NCBI GenBank assembly: GCA_015062825.1
Contig: SUTR01000025.1
Coordinates: 1 to 36,432, forward strand
Length of the DNA stretch: 36,432 bases
Source: Methanosphaera stadtmanae
GTDB taxonomy: Archaea > Methanobacteriota > Methanobacteria > Methanobacteriales > Methanobacteriaceae
Direction of reading: 5' to 3'
The notes under the pieces are model-generated. The model saw nothing but the letters and a program-made list of their open reading frames with translations, ran no database searches and was not told the origin of the DNA. Shown here piece by piece: positions 1 through 36,368 of the stretch. Position 1 is the first letter of the stretch. The number at the start of each line of letters is the position of its first letter. The position numbers and the translations under genes are program-made.

Positions 1-2097
1 ACCTATCCTGCTAATGATACGTATAATCCAAGTAATACTACTGTGGATATGAATATTTTACCACGTCCAAGCGAAATAACTGGTGAAGTATCAAACAACA
101 TTGTTGACAATGTCACCATTGTAGCAACAGTAACAGATGCAGAAACTGGTGAACTCGTACCAAACGGAACTGTAATTGCTAAAGTTAACGGTACCGAAGT
201 AGGTCGTGGAACAGTAACAGATGGAAAAGCAAACATACCTACAAACATTGATACTAAAGGATTAGTTGACGTTGATTTAGAATACACTGGAAATGAAGTA
301 TACACACCAAGTAACACAACAGTAGATGTTGAAGTAGTTGGACGTGTAGCAAACATTACAGAAGTACCTGATAACACAACATTAGGTAATACAACAGTAA
401 ACGTAACCTTAGTAGATAATGAGACAGGAAAACCAATTCCAAATGCTCCTGTTGACATAATAGTTAACGGTACAGTAGTTGGAAAAGGAACAACTGATGA
501 TGAAGGTAAAGCAACTATTCCAGTAGACTTACCAGTAGGAGATTATAACGTCACAGCAGTATTTGATGGAAACGACAAATACAACGCAACCAATACAACC
601 GTACCAATGACCGTTGAACCACGTCCAAGCCAAATTGATGCAGAAGTAATTAACAACACAGCTGGAAATGTAACAATCACAGTTAACATTACCGATGCAG
701 AAACTGGTGAAGTCGTACCAAACGGACATGTAACAGTATATGTTAACGGAACTCCAGTTGGAACTGGTGAAGTAATTGATGGTAAAGCAATCATACCTAC
801 AAACATCACAACAGAAGGCAACTACACATTCGATGTAAAATATCATGGTAATGAAAATTACACTGAAAGTGAAGATAACCTACCTGTAGAAGTAATTTCA
901 AAACCAACAGAAATAGAACCAAAAGTAATTGATCCAATTATTGGTGAAACAGAAATCGAAATTGAATTAATAGATCCAAAAACTGGAGATAAATTAATCA
1001 ATAAACCGGTTATCATAAAATTACCTAACGGTACAGAAATCACTTCAAAAACAGATGAAAATGGTATATTAGACTTACCTGTAGATTTACCAGCTGGACT
1101 CAATAACTTAAAAGTTATTTTCCCTGGTGATGATGAATATGATGCATCAACTACAGACTTCCCAGTAAATGTTGTAAAACGTAATGCAATATTAACTCCA
1201 ATGGTTCAAAACAAAACAACCAATAATGCAGTTGTTGTAATTGAAGCAAGAGATGCTAGAAACGGTAGTTTAATAACTAATGGAACAATCGAACTCACAT
1301 TACCTGATGGTACTGTAGTAAGAGCACCATTAAACGAAAACGGTGTTGCAGTATTCGAAAATGTTCCACTTCCAGACAACGTAACAGAACTAAATGCAAC
1401 TCTCCTAGAAAATCCAATTTACAATGAAGCAGATACAGATGTATCCATTGTAAAACCTAGAGTAATCGTAATTGGTGACTGGAAATTAGTACAAATTATC
1501 CCACCAGAAGATGAAACACCGGAAACTCCGGGAGATAACAATAACAACAGACCTGTTTCCGAAGTTAGAAAACAATTTACTCCTAGAGTAAAATATAACA
1601 ATAACTATCAAAACAGATATTCCAGATATAATGGTTATAGTAACTATAATAGGTACAACAGGTACAATAAACGTCCAACATGGAACAGACCAAGAGGACA
1701 TTATGTGCCTATACCTAGAATGACTAAAGCACAATATCTCTTATTCATCACATTATATTCTGATTTATTAGAAGGAGACATGAGCTTTGCTGACTTTGTT
1801 GCAATACTCAAATTAAATGGTATTGAAATTGCAAGTTCTAGTGCATGGGATTCAAACGGAGTATTAATCTTTGAATATGATGATATAAGTGAAGTTCCAG
1901 ATTCAATAGAAATCCATGACAACTCAGGACATGTTCAAGATTACAGTAGTAATATTGAGAAAAACAATGCCCCAAGTAGTTCAGGACAAATTGACAGTGG
2001 AAACATTGAAGTAGAATCATCTTCAAGTGCACCATCTTCAAGTGCATCAGCTAAAGCACCAGCACAATCTGCTTCTGCTGCAGCTGCTGAAGAATAA
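1..2097 (+). CDS. Adhesin-like surface protein, Ig-like repeats, 5'-truncated by window edge
   Basis: The reading frame is open from base 1, so the N-terminus and any signal peptide lie outside the window. What remains is five consecutive Ig-like repeats of about 93 residues each. Every repeat has an 'ETG..(I/V)PN' strand, an 'NGT.VG.G' turn and a closing 'GN..Y..(S/A)(N/T)T' strand, as in the bacterial Ig-like domains of archaeal adhesin-like proteins. N-glycosylation sequons (N-x-T/S) are very frequent. After the repeats comes a short proline/acidic linker, then a strongly basic Asn/Arg/Tyr-rich stretch with repeated YNRYN units (about bases 1560-1700). A compact domain follows (YLLFITLYSDLLEGDMSFAD), and a Ser/Ala-rich tail ends in EE. 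No C-terminal membrane helix is visible, so the basic stretch may hold the protein to the pseudomurein wall (inference). It is more GC-rich than its neighbours, which may reflect high expression. Adhesion is inferred from family style only. Confidence 0.85.
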   Translation, partial: TYPANDTYNPSNTTVDMNILPRPSEITGEVSNNIVDNVTIVATVTDAETGELVPNGTVIAKVNGTEVGRGTVTDGKANIPTNIDTKGLVDVDLEYTGNEVYTPSNTTVDVEVVGRVANITEVPDNTTLGNTTVNVTLVDNETGKPIPNAPVDIIVNGTVVGKGTTDDEGKATIPVDLPVGDYNVTAVFDGNDKYNATNTTVPMTVEPRPSQIDAEVINNTAGNVTITVNITDAETGEVVPNGHVTVYVNGTPVGTGEVIDGKAIIPTNITTEGNYTFDVKYHGNENYTESEDNLPVEVISKPTEIEPKVIDPIIGETEIEIELIDPKTGDKLINKPVIIKLPNGTEITSKTDENGILDLPVDLPAGLNNLKVIFPGDDEYDASTTDFPVNVVKRNAILTPMVQNKTTNNAVVVIEARDARNGSLITNGTIELTLPDGTVVRAPLNENGVAVFENVPLPDNVTELNATLLENPIYNEADTDVSIVKPRVIVIGDWKLVQIIPPEDETPETPGDNNNNRPVSEVRKQFTPRVKYNNNYQNRYSRYNGYSNYNRYNRYNKRPTWNRPRGHYVPIPRMTKAQYLLFITLYSDLLEGDMSFADFVAILKLNGIEIASSSAWDSNGVLIFEYDDISEVPDSIEIHDNSGHVQDYSSNIEKNNAPSSSGQIDSGNIEVESSSSAPSSSASAKAPAQSASAAAAEE

Positions 2098-8515: not shown

Positions 8516-10936
8516 ATGAATTATAATCATATGAAAATATTATTGTTTTCATTATTTGTAATACTATTTATAGGAATAGCATCAGCTACGGATACATCTA
8601 ATATGACGACTAATGGAACTATTCATCAAGAAACTACTTTTAATGAAAAGAATAATAAAGTCATAGAAGAATATAATCAAATAGAAAATAACGGAAAAAC
8701 GATAAAAGAATCAAATAATAAAATAGATACAAAAACTTCTATAATAAATTCTAAAAGTACAATTGATGAACAATTACAACTCAAAGCAACCGTTACAGAT
8801 AATAGAAACAGTAAAGTAACTGGAGGATATGTGATTTTTAAATTGAATGGCATAACAATCAAAGATAATAAGAAATTAACTGGAAGTACTAATAGTTTAA
8901 AGGTATATCTTAAAGATGGAGTAGCATTTACAAGCGTAACTGCTGATTTGAACATGCGAAATGCAAAAAATATAACTGCTATATATTCCGGTTCATCAAC
9001 ATATAATCCCTCAAGATCAAATACTGCTGAGGTAAAAATAGCATTGAGAAACGCATCAATAGTTGTATCAAGTAATGTTAAAAAAATTAAGCAAGGACAA
9101 TACTTAACATTAAATGCTAAAGTATATGATATCACAAATAAACAAAGAACGACTACATTAACACCGTACTCTGATGAGTATGTGTATTTTAAAGTAAATG
9201 GAATAACATTAAAAAACTCAACAGGAAGCACGCTTAAGGTAAAAGTAGTAAATGGTACGGCTATAACTAAATATTATGTTCCATTAGGACTTTCAGGAAT
9301 AACTGATGGAAAAACATTCACTGTTAAGAATCATACAATACTTGCAGGATATTCAAATAAAAACTATTATCCTACTGCAACAAATACAAGTACATTCCAA
9401 ACAGAAAGATCAGACATCACCATTAATTTCCAAAAAGTCACTATACATCCCTTAACACATAAAGCAAATATAACAGCAAATATTAAAGATTATTTAGGAA
9501 ATAATGTGATTGGACCAAATAAATTAGCAGTAAAAGTAAATGGATTCACACTAAAAAATGCAAATACAACAAGGTACTTCACAGTACAAAATGGAAATAT
9601 AAACCTACAAAATATACAAATCCCATCATATCCAACTTATAAAAATGTGGAAATTGTTACACAAGACAGATTAGCATATAAAAGTCAAAGAAATACAACT
9701 ACAAGAATAAATCTCATAGAAGAATATGCCGAAGTATACCTACATTCATCACAAACAGTCAAATATAAAGAACAAGCACAATTTGATCTGGAAGTATGTG
9801 ATATAAACAATAATTATATTAAAGATGGTAAAATAAACTGGTATATTGACAACAAACTATCTAAAGTCACAAATTTAGTTAATGGTAAAAGTAACATTAC
9901 CATAAATAATCAAACAGCAGGACAACATACAATAAAAGCAGAATTTATAAAAGAAGGATATAAAAAAGGTACTGATTATACAACATTAACAGTAGAAAAA
10001 ATTAAAACAATATTATATACTCCAAATGGTGCATACAAAGGAAGTAAAATATACCTAAGGGCTTATGTGGAATCAGCGAATTATGATAATGATGAAATAA
10101 ATGAGGGTAGTGTAACATTTTATATGGATGGAAATAACATTGGACGAGCAAATGTAAAAGAAAGCCGGGCAAAGCTACCTTATACAATCACACAAAGTGC
10201 AGGAACACATACAGTATATGCCCAATATACTGGAACAAACTATGAAAGTACTACAAGTGATGTTGAAACATTTGAAGTGGTAACAACTAAAGAAGAAATA
10301 CAAATTAACTCATATTATCAAGTCTCCACTCCAAATGAATATATAAAGCAGGTCTTTGTATTTGAAGATTTCTACCGAAATATTTTAAATGAAGGAACAG
10401 TAACAGCAAAATTAAATGGAAAAACTATAGGAACATACACCTTAAATGAAGGATTAGTCACAGTAAATATAGGTAAAAAAAGTATTGGAACATATACATT
10501 AACTGTTGAATACACATCCAGTCACTTTAAAACAACAAAATATTCAACAAAGTTAAATGTAATTAATAAAGTAAGAACAGAAATATGGCTAACTGTATAT
10601 GGAGAAGAATTCCTACAGGAAGGACCTATTAAACAAGGGGAATACATTACTGATGATGTGTCAGTGATACAATATAATACCATTAATTCTGTTTCATCAG
10701 GTAAAATACAAGTATCCCTTGATAACAAAGTAATAGGAATATTTGATTTGAAGCCATTAGGTCGGGCAGCTGATGCAAGTGGAACAGTAAGGGCAAAAAT
10801 AGAATTCAATGCGCCACAAGAAGTAGGAGAACATACAATAAAATATACATATATTCCACAAAATAATGCTTATTCAACATCTTATCGTCAAATAAAAATA
10901 AATGTATTGATGAATATGAATATGATAATAGATTGA
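8516..10936 (+). CDS. Secreted adhesin-like protein with about seven Ig-like repeats
   Basis: An 806-residue surface protein. A GGAGGT SD precedes the ATG. The N-terminus is a signal peptide (KILLFSLFVILFIGIASA, cleavage near residue 25). After a polar linker come about seven Ig-like domains of 90-120 residues, beginning roughly at residues 80, 181, 299, 406, 498, 595 and 691. They show recurring 'G.(V/I).(F/W)(K/Y)(L/V)(N/D)(G/N)' and 'G.(H/Y)T(I/V/L).(A/V)(E/Q/K)(F/Y)' strands. The repeats are much more diverged than in the first adhesin. No C-terminal membrane helix or wall-binding domain is visible. The protein ends abruptly in MNMNMIID, and an Asp/Tyr-rich tail reads in another frame just beyond, so the C-terminus may be frameshifted. 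Adhesion is inferred from architecture. Confidence 0.88.
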   Translation: MNYNHMKILLFSLFVILFIGIASATDTSNMTTNGTIHQETTFNEKNNKVIEEYNQIENNGKTIKESNNKIDTKTSIINSKSTIDEQLQLKATVTDNRNSKVTGGYVIFKLNGITIKDNKKLTGSTNSLKVYLKDGVAFTSVTADLNMRNAKNITAIYSGSSTYNPSRSNTAEVKIALRNASIVVSSNVKKIKQGQYLTLNAKVYDITNKQRTTTLTPYSDEYVYFKVNGITLKNSTGSTLKVKVVNGTAITKYYVPLGLSGITDGKTFTVKNHTILAGYSNKNYYPTATNTSTFQTERSDITINFQKVTIHPLTHKANITANIKDYLGNNVIGPNKLAVKVNGFTLKNANTTRYFTVQNGNINLQNIQIPSYPTYKNVEIVTQDRLAYKSQRNTTTRINLIEEYAEVYLHSSQTVKYKEQAQFDLEVCDINNNYIKDGKINWYIDNKLSKVTNLVNGKSNITINNQTAGQHTIKAEFIKEGYKKGTDYTTLTVEKIKTILYTPNGAYKGSKIYLRAYVESANYDNDEINEGSVTFYMDGNNIGRANVKESRAKLPYTITQSAGTHTVYAQYTGTNYESTTSDVETFEVVTTKEEIQINSYYQVSTPNEYIKQVFVFEDFYRNILNEGTVTAKLNGKTIGTYTLNEGLVTVNIGKKSIGTYTLTVEYTSSHFKTTKYSTKLNVINKVRTEIWLTVYGEEFLQEGPIKQGEYITDDVSVIQYNTINSVSSGKIQVSLDNKVIGIFDLKPLGRAADASGTVRAKIEFNAPQEVGEHTIKYTYIPQNNAYSTSYRQIKINVLMNMNMIID

Positions 10937-25843: not shown

Positions 25844-25944
25844 TAAAACGAGTATTATTTTAATTATTCTTTACTGAAAATAATAATTATCCAATTAAAT
25901 AAAAGTAACTATTTATTACTTAAAAAATATATAATATAATAGTA

Positions 25945-26062
25945 ATTCTCAGGGCGAGGTGAAAGTCCTCACCGGTGGTGAATGTAATAGTCCACGAGCA
26001 TATAGAAATGTTGATTTGGTGAAAGTCCAAAACCGACGGTTAAAGTCCGGATGAGAGAGAAT
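25945..26062 (+). ncRNA. FMN riboswitch (RFN element)
   Basis: The conserved RFN blocks appear in order: AGGGCGAGGTGAAAGTCCTC (25951-25970), ACCGGTGGT (25971-25979), CCACGAGC (25992-25999), GGTGAAAGTCC (26018-26028), AACCGACGGTTAAAGTCCGG (26031-26050) and ATGAGAGAGA (26051-26060). Helix P1 is ATTCTC (25945-25950) with GAGAAT (26057-26062). It senses FMN and controls ribB, which starts 62 bases further on. FMN riboswitches are a bacterial hallmark, and finding one in an archaeon is unusual. A TATA-like box near 25927-25934 would start transcription at about the first base of P1. Confidence 0.93.
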
Positions 26063-26104
26063 ATTCAATTATATTATCTTTTTGCCCTGTTTTTTTTGAA
26101 TATT
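26060..26104 (+). promoter_or_regulatory. Expression platform of the FMN riboswitch
   Basis: A 9-bp perfect stem AATATTCAA/TTGAATATT (26060-26068 with 26096-26104) overlaps the 3' strand of P1, so it competes with the ligand-bound fold. Its loop holds GCCCTG (26084-26089), complementary to CAGGGC (25950-25955) in the aptamer core, followed by eight T (26090-26097). The T run could terminate transcription, and the stem ends 7 bases before the SD at 26111. Confidence 0.6.
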
Positions 26105-26123
26105 AATTATAAGGATGATAATA

Positions 26124-26762
26124 ATGAATCATGAAGAAATGTTAGAAGGAACATATCAACAACGCGTTGATACAGCTGTAGATGCTATAAAAAACGGTAA
26201 AGGAGTTATTGTAACCGATGATGAATCACGTGAAAATGAAGGAGACATGTTTTTTTCAGCTGAAACAATTACCGAAGAACAAATGGCATTACTCATAAGA
26301 GAAGGTAGTGGAATTGTATGTTTATGCATGACTGAAGATAGGGCTGATGAATTGGATTTACCATTAATGGTTGAAGACAATACAAGTACATATGGTACAG
26401 GTTTTACAATAACCATTGAAGCAGCAGAAGGGGTAACAACTGGCGTATCAGCAGCAGATCGTGTAAAAACAATTAAGACAGCAGCTGCAGATGATGCTAA
26501 AGCTGAAGATTTACATCATCCAGGTCATGTATTTCCACTAAGAGCTAAAAATGGTGGGGTATTAGAACGTGATGGACATACAGAAGCTAATATTGAATTA
26601 ATGAAACTTGCAGGTCTTAAGCCTATGGGTGTATTATGTGAAATCACAAATCCTGATGGTACAATGGCTAGAATGCCTGAAATTATCAAGTTTTCACAAG
26701 AACATGACATGCCTGTTGTAACAATAAATGATATAATTGAATATTTAAAGGAAAATAACTAA
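26124..26762 (+). CDS. ribB: 3,4-dihydroxy-2-butanone 4-phosphate synthase, bacterial type
   Basis: A 212-residue enzyme converting ribulose 5-phosphate to formate and the four-carbon riboflavin precursor. Signatures are [15 protein letters not shown] (metal/substrate acidic loop), [52 protein letters not shown]-like [13 protein letters not shown] and [15 protein letters not shown]. As I recall it, the match to E. coli RibB runs through nearly the whole length, much closer than to archaeal RibB such as the Methanocaldococcus enzyme. It is a stand-alone protein without the GTP cyclohydrolase II domain of RibBA fusions. An in-frame ATG at 26115 lies in the SD (AAGGATGAT), so 26124 is the start. 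Controlled by the FMN riboswitch immediately upstream. Probably acquired from a bacterium together with its leader (inference). Confidence 0.96.
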
Positions 26763-26777
26763 ATATTTATTAACAAC

Positions 26778-26818
26778 TATTTTTTAACTTTTTTTATTCT
26801 ATTTTTTTATCTCTTTTT
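26778..26818 (+). terminator. T-rich terminator after ribB
   Basis: Four T runs of five to seven bases, separated by one to seven other bases, start about 15 bases after the stop. Confidence 0.5.
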
Positions 26819-26837
26819 GATGTGGAGCATTATTTCT

Positions 26838-27221
26838 ATGATTGACTGGGATATAAGTTATATTCAAGAATTAGAAGATCATTATAATGAAATTTTTGAA
26901 GAACATTTGAATCTAGTTTATTTTACTAATAATTTTGAGAATATTTACAGATTAACTATACGAGATAAATTTCTTCTTCCTGATTTGTTTCATGATGTAA
27001 TGTTATATACTTTCAACGGTATTAATGCAAGAGATAAAATGATGTACTCTGAAAAAGAATTAGAAATTCTTGAAGAAGTTTTAGAAGAAGAAAGAATTAA
27101 TCAAAGAAAAAAAAGACATGATGCAATTGACAAAAACTTGGAAGCATATTATGAATTTTTACAGGAGGAGCTTAGGGAATTTATTAAGAAATATCCTTTT
27201 TGGGAAAATGTTTTTAGATAA
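26838..27221 (+). CDS. Uncharacterised small protein, paralogue of the sulfur-operon protein
   Basis: A 127-residue soluble, charged, probably helical protein with no named family. The start at ATG 26838 is chosen because MIDWDISYIQEL then lines up with MNDWDEEYINNL of the protein at 4982-5386. The upstream in-frame codons have no SD, while GGAG lies 10 bases before this ATG. The C-terminal YYEFLQEELREFIKKYPFWEN also parallels the FLDKEIFDFIEEFPQYKD of that protein. The central His/Asp-rich segment of the paralogue is not conserved here. It lies between ribB and a convergent small gene. Function unknown. Confidence 0.75.
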   Translation: MIDWDISYIQELEDHYNEIFEEHLNLVYFTNNFENIYRLTIRDKFLLPDLFHDVMLYTFNGINARDKMMYSEKELEILEEVLEEERINQRKKRHDAIDKNLEAYYEFLQEELREFIKKYPFWENVFR

Positions 27222-27556: not shown

Positions 27557-28531
27557 ATGTCATTTGTATTAAATCTTAAAAAGAAAATTATTAATGGTGA
27601 ATCTATTACTAAAGATGAAGCAATGAAATTAATAGATGTGCCTCTTGATGAATTAACCAAACAAGCGGATAATATAAGAAAATTTTATTGTCAAAATAAA
27701 TTTGATGTATGTACTATTTTAAATGTAAAGAATGGTTGCTGTAGTGAAGATTGTTCATTTTGTGCACAGTCTATTCATAATCAAACTTCTATCAAGACTT
27801 ATCCTATGTTATCTGAAGATATAATTGTCAGTCAAAGTAAACAAATTTTAGATGGGGGATTTAAAAGGATATCCTTTGTCTCATCAGGAAGAAAGATTGA
27901 TGATGATGAATTTGACATAATATTGAAGGCTATTTGGAAATTACAACAAGAATATGATGATATCCATATATGTGTATCTTTGGGATTACTTACAAATAAG
28001 CAAATGAAATTGTTAAAGAAGTGCAATGTCAGTCGTATACATAATAATCTTGAAAGTTCTAGTAATTATTTTAAACATATTTGTACTACTCATAGTTATA
28101 ATGACAAGCTTGATACACTTAAGACAATAAATGATGAAAATCTCATTATATGTAGTGGTGGGATATTTGGACTTGGTGAAACATTTGAAGATAGGATTGA
28201 TCTTGCAATGCAATTAAGGAATTTAAATATTAAATCAATACCTATCAATATATTAAATCCGATAAAGGGAACACCAGTGGAAGATAATCAGATATTGTCC
28301 AACGATGAGGTTTGTAGGATAGTTGCAATATTTCGTTTTATAAATCCTCGAAGCTTTATTAGAATGGCTGGTGGTAGAACATTACTGTCTGATAATGGAT
28401 TAAAGGCATTTCAATCAGGAGCTAATGCTTGTATATTAGGCAATATGCTTACCACGATGGGTGGGTCTATAGAAGATGATTTGGATATGATAAATCAGTT
28501 GGGTTATGTTATTACTTACTCATTAAAATAA
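27557..28531 (+). CDS. bioB: Biotin synthase (radical SAM)
   Basis: A 324-residue radical SAM enzyme that inserts sulfur into dethiobiotin. The [4Fe-4S]/SAM motif is C62-SED-C66-SF-C69 (NGCCSEDCSFCAQS). Other BioB signatures are RISFVSSGR, ICVSLGLLT, HNNLESS (usually HNLDTS or HNIET), IICSGGIFGLGE, PINILNPIKGTP and FIRMAGGR, the Arg ligand of the second cluster. No bioA, bioD, bioF or bioW is nearby, so the organism may scavenge dethiobiotin or encode the rest elsewhere. The sulfur it consumes links it to the nifS/nifU/cysK operon functionally. GGTG about 9 bases upstream is the SD. Confidence 0.93.
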   Translation: MSFVLNLKKKIINGESITKDEAMKLIDVPLDELTKQADNIRKFYCQNKFDVCTILNVKNGCCSEDCSFCAQSIHNQTSIKTYPMLSEDIIVSQSKQILDGGFKRISFVSSGRKIDDDEFDIILKAIWKLQQEYDDIHICVSLGLLTNKQMKLLKKCNVSRIHNNLESSSNYFKHICTTHSYNDKLDTLKTINDENLIICSGGIFGLGETFEDRIDLAMQLRNLNIKSIPINILNPIKGTPVEDNQILSNDEVCRIVAIFRFINPRSFIRMAGGRTLLSDNGLKAFQSGANACILGNMLTTMGGSIEDDLDMINQLGYVITYSLK

Positions 28532-28817: not shown

Positions 28818-29435
28818 ATGCATGTACCTGATGGATTAATATCAGATCCTATTCAACTGGGAGTATACGCAGTAGTTTATATTATTCTGATGGCAATAAT
28901 ACTAAATAAATACAGAAAAAATCACACAGAAAAAAATATTCCAATAATAGCATTATTTGCAGCAGCAATATTGATAGTACAACTTGTTGAAATTCCATTA
29001 CCAGTTCCTGCATGTGTACACGTATCTTTAATAACTGTCATGGCATTATATGATCTAGAATCGTCCACATTAGTTTATACCTTTGTCACAATTGCACAGG
29101 CATTTATGGGTGAAGGTGGAATTAGTACAATGGGAATAAATCTGTTGAATCTGGCAATATTTGCACCAATTATAGCATACTATTCATACCAATTCATACA
29201 GAGATATGATAAAAATCTTGCACTATTTGTATCAGGATTTATAACGATTACCTTACTTGGAGTAATAGTAAGTATTGAATATGCAATAGCTGGAACATAT
29301 CCAATAACATTTGGATTAACTGTAATTACTCCAATTGAAATGATAATAGGTGTAATTGAAGGGGTGGTAACAATAGTTGTTATGAATGCACTATTAAAAG
29401 TAAAACCCGAATTGGCACCAGCATTAACACAGTAG
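28818..29435 (+). CDS. Energy-coupling-factor nickel/cobalt permease subunit (CbiM/NikM)
   Basis: A 205-residue membrane protein with six or more helices. This is the substrate-binding (S) component of Ni/Co ECF transporters. The N-terminus MHVPDGLIS is diagnostic: the Met1 amino group and His2 coordinate the metal, together with a later histidine. H68 in VPACVHVSL matches His67 of characterised NikM, so the site is intact. A GGGGG SD stands 8 bases before the ATG. The next gene encodes a His-rich secreted protein in the place where cbiN or nikN often stands. The CbiQ/CbiO energising subunits are not in the window. A palindromic operator lies at the promoter. Nickel is likely important for a methanogen (F430, hydrogenases) and cobalt for corrinoids; which one is carried is not decided. 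Confidence 0.9.
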   Translation: MHVPDGLISDPIQLGVYAVVYIILMAIILNKYRKNHTEKNIPIIALFAAAILIVQLVEIPLPVPACVHVSLITVMALYDLESSTLVYTFVTIAQAFMGEGGISTMGINLLNLAIFAPIIAYYSYQFIQRYDKNLALFVSGFITITLLGVIVSIEYAIAGTYPITFGLTVITPIEMIIGVIEGVVTIVVMNALLKVKPELAPALTQ

Positions 29436-35486: not shown

Positions 35487-35831
35487 TCAATCACCTTGAT
35501 TTCTATTAATCATTTAAGATTTTTTTTATAATTATTATTGAAATTATGAAATATTTTATTGGAATAGCCCATTTAGGTTAATCTTATGATTAATATAATC
35601 ATATAATAAATTATAATTTAATAATAAAGTATGTAAATAATTAAAATCCCTTATAGTCATAAAATTATTACATTTAATATATTGTTCTATGTTATATATA
35701 ATGTTTATATTTTTTTTTTCAAAATATTCAGATGGATTTGATTAGTAATTATTGATTTTTATTTAAATAATGGATTAATTTATTAATTATAAAAAATATA
35801 TTTATTATAACAGAATAAGGTGGGATATTTT
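35487..35831. other. 345-base divergent promoter region
   Basis: AT-rich with no gene. It carries TATA-like stretches on both sides (e.g. TTATATATAAT near 35693-35703) and a ten-base T run near 35710. No strong hairpin or operator is recognised. Confidence 0.4.
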
Positions 35832-36368
35832 ATGGTCAATCATTTTGTAAGAGATGAATTTCCATCAGCAGATGATGGTGATAATTATTTTGATTTTTTA
35901 GAGAAGTTACAGGATGAGATTGTATACCTTCAGCTTGTTATTGATGAAATATTAAGTGATAATCTATTTAACAATAATATTTACATTCAATTAACTGGAA
36001 TGATGAGGTATGCTAAGAATAGGATATTTCCAGTATTTTCGGCATTTTTAGCTGAGGATCCTAATTTCAATCAGGATATATATTATGAATTTATGGATAT
36101 TCATTTAATGGTTAATTATTTATTTGATAAGTTACAGTATGAAATTGACGAAGTTGTTATCAAATGGGATTTTAATAATGCTGAGATTAAGGAAGATATC
36201 GATAATTTAGAAACAGTTAACTATTATTTAAATCTTATACAATTCCAAATTTCATTATTTGCAGGAATTTATGATTCGAAGGTTTCTTTAATTGAAGGTA
36301 AAATTAGTCAAGAAGTTTATGATGATGAGATGGAAAGCATTCATAAAATATTGGATGATGAATTTTAA
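35832..36368 (+). CDS. Uncharacterised helical protein, relative of the one at 34277
   Basis: A 178-residue soluble, acidic, predicted all-helical protein without a known domain. The in-frame GTG at 35820 lies in the SD (AAGGTGGGAT), so the ATG at 35832 is the start. The C-terminal region LNLIQFQISLFAGIYDSKVS..GKISQEVYDDE parallels that of the protein at 34277-34801. The two flank the tandem three-helix membrane gene pair, which is suggestive of a shared function but no more than that. Confidence 0.75.
   Translation: MVNHFVRDEFPSADDGDNYFDFLEKLQDEIVYLQLVIDEILSDNLFNNNIYIQLTGMMRYAKNRIFPVFSAFLAEDPNFNQDIYYEFMDIHLMVNYLFDKLQYEIDEVVIKWDFNNAEIKEDIDNLETVNYYLNLIQFQISLFAGIYDSKVSLIEGKISQEVYDDEMESIHKILDDEF

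Follow-up and report, generated by a model that had tools for sequence, protein, structure and literature searches.

A predicted FMN riboswitch before ribB in Methanosphaera stadtmanae, probably acquired from proteobacteria and shared in its family by two ribB genes of different origin

The ribB locus and its FMN aptamer

The stretch of DNA analyzed here (the window, 36,432 nucleotides) is one whole contig (G000:C130) of a 99.9% complete, 2.61-Mb genome of the gut methanogen Methanosphaera stadtmanae. A cmscan search of the window with all 4227 families of Rfam 15 gave a single match above the gathering cut-off, to the FMN family RF00050, at 110.9 bits (cut-off 66.2, E = 3.3e-25); it covers model positions 1-138 of 138 without truncation and is the only FMN riboswitch in the genome. 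Every helix and the conserved multihelix junction closed by P1 are present in the RF00050 alignment, and P1 itself is made of six standard pairs plus two outer mismatches. The first open reading frame 3′ of the aptamer, at a distance of 57 nt, encodes RibB (TIGR00506, 258.9 bits, cut-off 177.45). The positions of these and the other features are collected in Table 1.

A preliminary description, made from the letters of the sequence, had read this locus as a complete FMN riboswitch with all RFN blocks and a pairing P1, and the full-length match bears this reading out. The extent it gave, 25945-26062, leaves out the unpaired or mismatched ends and otherwise covers the same element, and the Infernal search with RF00050 that it had proposed scores far over threshold, so that refutation by a low score fails. 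Its claim of an archaeal host also holds. Among the genes of this genome is one for the archaeal, CTP-dependent type of riboflavin kinase (PF01982), and the contig itself codes for a HerA-like ATPase whose counterparts in 10 other genomes of the genus share 69-78% identity with it. We read the aptamer as a complete one of the FMN class, in a host that is truly archaeal. Genes for the biotin synthase BioB and for a CbiM-like transporter component lie close to the ribB locus, one of two small acidic proteins is encoded directly 3′ of ribB, with a similar protein at the same place in locus L007, and two large, adhesin-like repeat proteins are encoded elsewhere on the contig.

Table 1. Features of the window discussed in the text
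Feature	Position	Strand	Basis or remark
FMN riboswitch aptamer (RF00050), complete	25941-26066	+	110.9 bits; double changes at 10/28 pairs in 92 archaeal relatives
P1 5′ strand AUUCUC, partner GAGAAU at 26057-26062	25945-25950	+	cmscan alignment; inner UCUC/GAGA invariant in 91 distinct sequences
CAGGGC, aptamer segment able to pair with downstream GCCCUG in the FMN-free fold	25950-25955	+	Leader comparison
U5 tract, end of a U-rich stretch that is a possible FMN-free partner of the P1 3′ strand	26079-26083	+	Constrained folding; T-run of at least 5 in most leaders
GCCCTG anti-aptamer element	26084-26089	+	In 93/93 intact leaders; chance 0.0023 per leader
T8 run replacing the 5′ arm of the start-codon hairpin of other species; degenerate arm	26090-26097	+	Leader comparison
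Shine-Dalgarno-like AAGG, 9 nt 5′ of the start codon	26111-26114	+	Sequence reading
ribB, 3,4-dihydroxy-2-butanone-4-phosphate synthase, proteobacterial type; alternative ATG at 26115	26124-26762	+	TIGR00506; RibB tree
Small acidic protein, directly 3′ of ribB	26817-27221		No Pfam family
Biotin synthase BioB	27557-28531		TIGR00433, 377 bits
CbiM-like transporter component	28818-29435
Small acidic protein	35820-36368		No Pfam family
Large repeat protein	43-2097		Bacterial Ig-like domains (Big_3_5)
Large repeat protein	8516-10936		Bacterial Ig-like domains (Big_3_5)

Conservation of the aptamer

Aptamers from 92 archaeal loci were aligned (alignment A1) and scored against the Rfam-derived structure, the loci being anchored on ACCGG.GGT since the GGTGAAA motif varies. 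In this alignment 92.3% of the cells are paired and 10 of the 28 pairs show changes on both sides, compared with 28-55% of cells and 0-5 double-change pairs when the structures are slid by 1-3 columns. Because the shuffle control for A1 does not correct for relatedness, it is the slid control and the double changes that carry the argument for selection. One P2 pair, for example, is A-U in 49 sequences and G-C in 42, and the inner P1 pairs do not vary at all.

Distribution in archaea

One FMN match each is found in 94 of the 139 genomes of Methanobacteriaceae (93 of them above the cut-off), closed genomes included, and the riboswitch is present in about two thirds of the species of the family. 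Six of its 17 genera bear the riboswitch. In the window genus it occurs in 12 of 20 genomes, and two genera are mostly riboswitch-bearing, namely the M. ruminantium group (with G019, which we take to be M. ruminantium M1) and the M. smithii group (with G042, presumably M. smithii ATCC 35061). All 94 stand directly upstream of a ribB. Beyond the family, neither the phylum (152 genomes) nor, in a wider search, 396 relatives in 204 genera gave any further FMN match. The earlier remark that archaeal examples are rare is right for archaea as a whole and needs correcting for the family itself: the FMN riboswitch is rare among archaea and normal in Methanobacteriaceae.

The match in G019 lies at 193837-193975. 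The Infernal user guide reportedly takes the M. ruminantium M1 genome as its example and is said to list an FMN match there, and for this reason archaeal FMN aptamers have probably been seen earlier, without comment. One leader about 100 nt 5′ of ribB (L126, in G078) keeps P1, P2 and the anti-aptamer described below but lacks the middle of the aptamer (33.6 bits); it is a natural mutant blind to FMN or else the product of faulty assembly. No ribB was found in three genomes that are each more than 90% complete (G117, G065, and G005), which are possible riboflavin auxotrophs.

Expression platform

A hexamer complementary to CAGGGC on the 5′ side of the aptamer is present in all 93 intact leaders, as [AG]CCCTG in 92 and as GCCCGG in L101, and the chance of such a hexamer in shuffled leaders is 0.0023. 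Within the aptamer the second base of CAGGGC has no partner; with the downstream element it forms an A-U pair in 83 leaders, a G-U pair in nine and, with both bases changed, a G-C pair in one. Eight leaders have lost the sixth pair. An FMN-free model obtained by constrained folding joins the 3′ strand of P1 to the U-rich stretch immediately 5′ of GCCCUG. Direct pairing of the Shine-Dalgarno sequence with GCCCUG was considered and rejected, with a pairing probability of 0.0-0.2 in every group.

In M. smithii, M. ruminantium, and related groups the sequence UGRUUCUAGUA, which follows GCCC, pairs with UACUAUGAAUCA, which contains the start codon, to form a hairpin with the Shine-Dalgarno sequence in its loop. 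Eleven of its pairs are kept in 90-100% of 80 leaders, one of them being A-U in archaea and G-C in gammaproteobacteria. Most Methanosphaera leaders have a start pairing of the type GGUUCAU with AUGAAUC. In the M. smithii group the hairpin region becomes more stable on release of GCCCUGN, moving from -3.2 to -8.4 kcal/mol, and in the M. ruminantium group the change is from -5.3 to -10.3 kcal/mol; the clamp of M. smithii itself is weak (-3.0). These values compare the local stability of the start-codon hairpin, and the two states cannot be told apart in full-leader ensembles of the M. smithii group: accessibility of the Shine-Dalgarno sequence and AUG is equal in both, since the hairpin forms in both and its stability alone changes.

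A start-codon hairpin clamped by the released anti-aptamer, found in most relatives, was not found in the window, where the canonical arm is missing (duplex of -1.0 kcal/mol) and a T8 run stands in its place. For an upstream stretch of the window, pairing with the region of the Shine-Dalgarno sequence and the start comes to -11.0 kcal/mol, a value that is not significant (equaled by 45 of 500 shuffles). As a general feature such an upstream start-pairing arm was rejected (mean z of about 0.2), and it may exist in the window only. The unpaired fraction predicted for the Shine-Dalgarno sequence of the window species rises from 0.26 when the aptamer is formed to 0.75 when the anti-aptamer is, in the expected direction although not decisive.

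Aptamer, covariation, anti-aptamer, and hairpin are properties of the sequences themselves; FMN binding, an OFF direction, and translation as the controlled step are what we infer on this basis. At low FMN, GCCCUG would capture CAGGGC of the aptamer, and the U-rich stretch just ahead of GCCCUG would capture the 3′ strand of P1, so that the aptamer is undone and ribB is translated. With FMN bound, P1 would form and GCCCUG would be freed; in most of the family the freed bases (UG) would then clamp the hairpin UGRUUCUAGUA:UACUAUGAAUCA, burying the AUG of ribB with the Shine-Dalgarno sequence in the loop, and translation would stop. That FMN turns ribB translation off appears to be the best reading, and control at the level of translation has good support across the family, whereas in the window species it is no more than plausible.

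Origin of ribB and change of partner gene

The RibB of the window is 68-69% identical to enterobacterial RibB. RibBs of this proteobacterial type occur in the window genus, in the M. ruminantium group, and in two further genera (22 rows), and in a RibB tree with limited donor sampling these rows nest in a 28-row clade with E. coli, Proteus, Aeromonas, Photobacterium, Acinetobacter, and a Rhodospirillales MAG (SH-aLRT 96); the branch that joins the archaeal clade, genus g16 included, has an SH-aLRT of 88. The RibBs of the M. smithii group and of genus g2 are only about 30% identical to that of the window and group with the RibBs of archaea that have no riboswitch (SH-aLRT 99). The aptamers standing before the two types of ribB are nevertheless 76-91% identical to each other, as against 58-72% to bacterial aptamers, with the aptamer of g16 (L002) intermediate at 72-77% and 78-81% identity.

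In the M. smithii group the riboswitch lies between the riboflavin kinase gene and ribB, two genes that adjoin in riboswitch-less relatives too. Many of the native RibBs that follow a riboswitch start with MNQE, while those without a riboswitch start with MIQEALK or similar; exceptions to the MNQE start are M. smithii itself (MSKNDLE) and L072. Three Methanosphaera genomes (G109, G110, and G111) have both types of ribB, one of proteobacterial length at the riboswitch and one of archaeal length elsewhere, and possibly represent an intermediate state. The Rhodospirillales MAG (L039, 2029-2330) has an FMN riboswitch of 104.3 bits and a leader with GCCCTGGTTCA...ATGAATCAG. Its riboswitch is unusual, and its monofunctional ribB is close to the archaeal type.

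Taken with the distribution and the tree, which are observed, these comparisons suggest that the riboswitch was probably acquired together with ribB from proteobacteria. The order of events is a matter of inference, for which the simplest account would be one transfer of riboswitch and ribB, after which the leader, with the first codons, was joined to the native ribB in one branch. That later joining, in the M. smithii group, would have left one riboswitch lineage in control of two ribB genes, and two ribB genes of different origin do appear to have this riboswitch in common. Because the expression platform would be inherited from a proteobacterial ribB leader, the cross-domain transfer and the use of one riboswitch for two ribB genes are more remarkable than the archaeal presence itself. 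Overall, we consider it likely that the Methanosphaera riboswitch represses ribB, that riboswitch, translational platform, and ribB came from a proteobacterium, and that the element was later joined to a native ribB.

Alternative explanations

The proteobacterial type of the window RibB could also mean that the assembly is contaminated by bacterial DNA, as the preliminary description had allowed. The same element is, however, found in 93 other genomes of the family, single-contig ones included, riboswitch and gene recur in many independent genomes of genus and family, and another gene of the contig, that of the HerA-like ATPase, has its homologs in the same genus; contamination, already refuted for the family, is rejected for the window as having next to no chance of being right. 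It is improbable that the aptamer is a relic, handed down in the window species but without any remaining control over ribB: the start-codon arm is degenerate there, some relatives have no riboswitch and the G078 leader has lost most of its aptamer, but the window aptamer is intact, its GCCCTG is kept, and the family-wide pattern speaks of constraint. Two or more independent acquisitions, with the M. smithii group separate from the Methanosphaera and M. ruminantium groups and a different ribB in each, would fit the patchy occurrence in the family and the different origin of the two ribB types in the tree. Against this, the aptamers of both gene types are far nearer to each other than to bacterial ones, and their leaders share the wording GCCCTGRTTCTAGTA ... 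TACTATGAATCA, unlike the bacterial leaders at the compensated pair. On this similarity of leader and aptamer we disfavor separate acquisitions and hold them to be improbable.

The main rival to translational control is termination at the U-tract. The imported riboswitch would in that case have been rewired in archaeal style, with FMN freeing the U-rich tract beside GCCCUG and the archaeal RNA polymerase, with the termination factor aCPSF1/FttA, stopping at the exposed tract before ribB, in addition to or in place of the masking of the start codon. U-rich tracts act as archaeal terminators, and a T-run of at least five stands beside the anti-aptamer in nearly all leaders of the M. smithii group, the M. 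ruminantium group, and g6; the FMN-free fold has this tract base-paired to the 3′ strand of P1, and the window, with U5 and U8 and no start-codon arm, would be the clearest case if rewiring were true. On the other hand, four of 12 Methanosphaera leaders have a run of just 2-4 and still keep GCCCTG, in AT-rich genomes a stretch that pairs with a purine-rich P1 strand can be expected to be U-rich in any case, and the start-codon hairpin, conserved and compensated, would be unneeded for termination. A search 3′ of the aptamer found no intrinsic terminator of the bacterial type. We give termination, and the rewiring it implies, a small chance, and retain repression at the level of translation as the preferred reading. 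As to the transcript itself, a TTTATATA-like box begins 32-34 nt 5′ of the CTC of P1 in 50 of 60 M. smithii-group leaders and would put the transcript start at or just 5′ of P1, a position in keeping with archaeal promoters. In the window itself no one box stood out clearly enough to be assigned.

Significance and comparison with known systems

Vitamin-cofactor riboswitches are usually taken as a bacterial trait, and tested archaeal cases are few. Here one riboswitch class is fixed across a large group of gut methanogens, in whose cells compensatory changes have preserved its bacterial expression platform. The passage of a regulatory RNA between domains, and its survival when the gene it serves is exchanged, can be studied on this example. 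Flavin analogues are suggested as possible probes of gut and rumen methanogens, and the element is a candidate natural control element for their genetics. We found no account of FMN riboswitches in these archaea in a literature search that covered mainly freely available papers, and no published account of a ribB-riboswitch transfer and partner switch.

RbkR, an archaeal riboflavin kinase-regulator protein, regulates archaeal riboflavin genes. By comparison, the kinase open reading frames of the window genus (113-152 aa) have the size of the kinase domain alone, and no DNA-binding, RbkR-like version was seen among them. A 2007 survey named TPP riboswitches as the only metabolite class outside bacteria (PMC2258182), and in 2021 the fluoride riboswitch of Thermococcus kodakarensis was described as the only natural archaeal riboswitch that had been tested (PMC8241225). 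Like the element here, the latter occurs naturally in an archaeon and has been proposed to work at the level of translation (PMC8241225); it differs in class and ligand and is known from experiment, the FMN element from sequence.

The closest counterpart is the E. coli ribB leader (NC_000913, L157), whose aptamer scores 120.9 bits and in which release of GCCCUGN changes the hairpin stability from -6.8 to -16.7. It likewise precedes a monofunctional ribB and has the GCCCTG anti-aptamer, a start-codon hairpin (CUGAUUCUGGUA:UACCAUGAAUCAG), and an MNQ start. The archaeal leaders differ from it in the U-rich sequence that takes the place of the anti-P1 stretch and in the change from G-C to A-U in the start-codon hairpin, and the window differs further in having no canonical start-codon arm. 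Archaea are not known to have Rho, and a Rho-dependent part of the control should for that reason not apply here. Such a part is included in the control by the E. coli ribB riboswitch (PMC10085680). With respect to RF00050 as a whole, the window element agrees with the class in its full-length match, in all helices and the conserved core, and in its place before a riboflavin gene; it is set apart by its archaeal host and by relatives' matches that all fall in one archaeal family. The riboswitch class, together with its proteobacterial ribB platform, is thus one already known, and what appears unusual is its evolutionary history.
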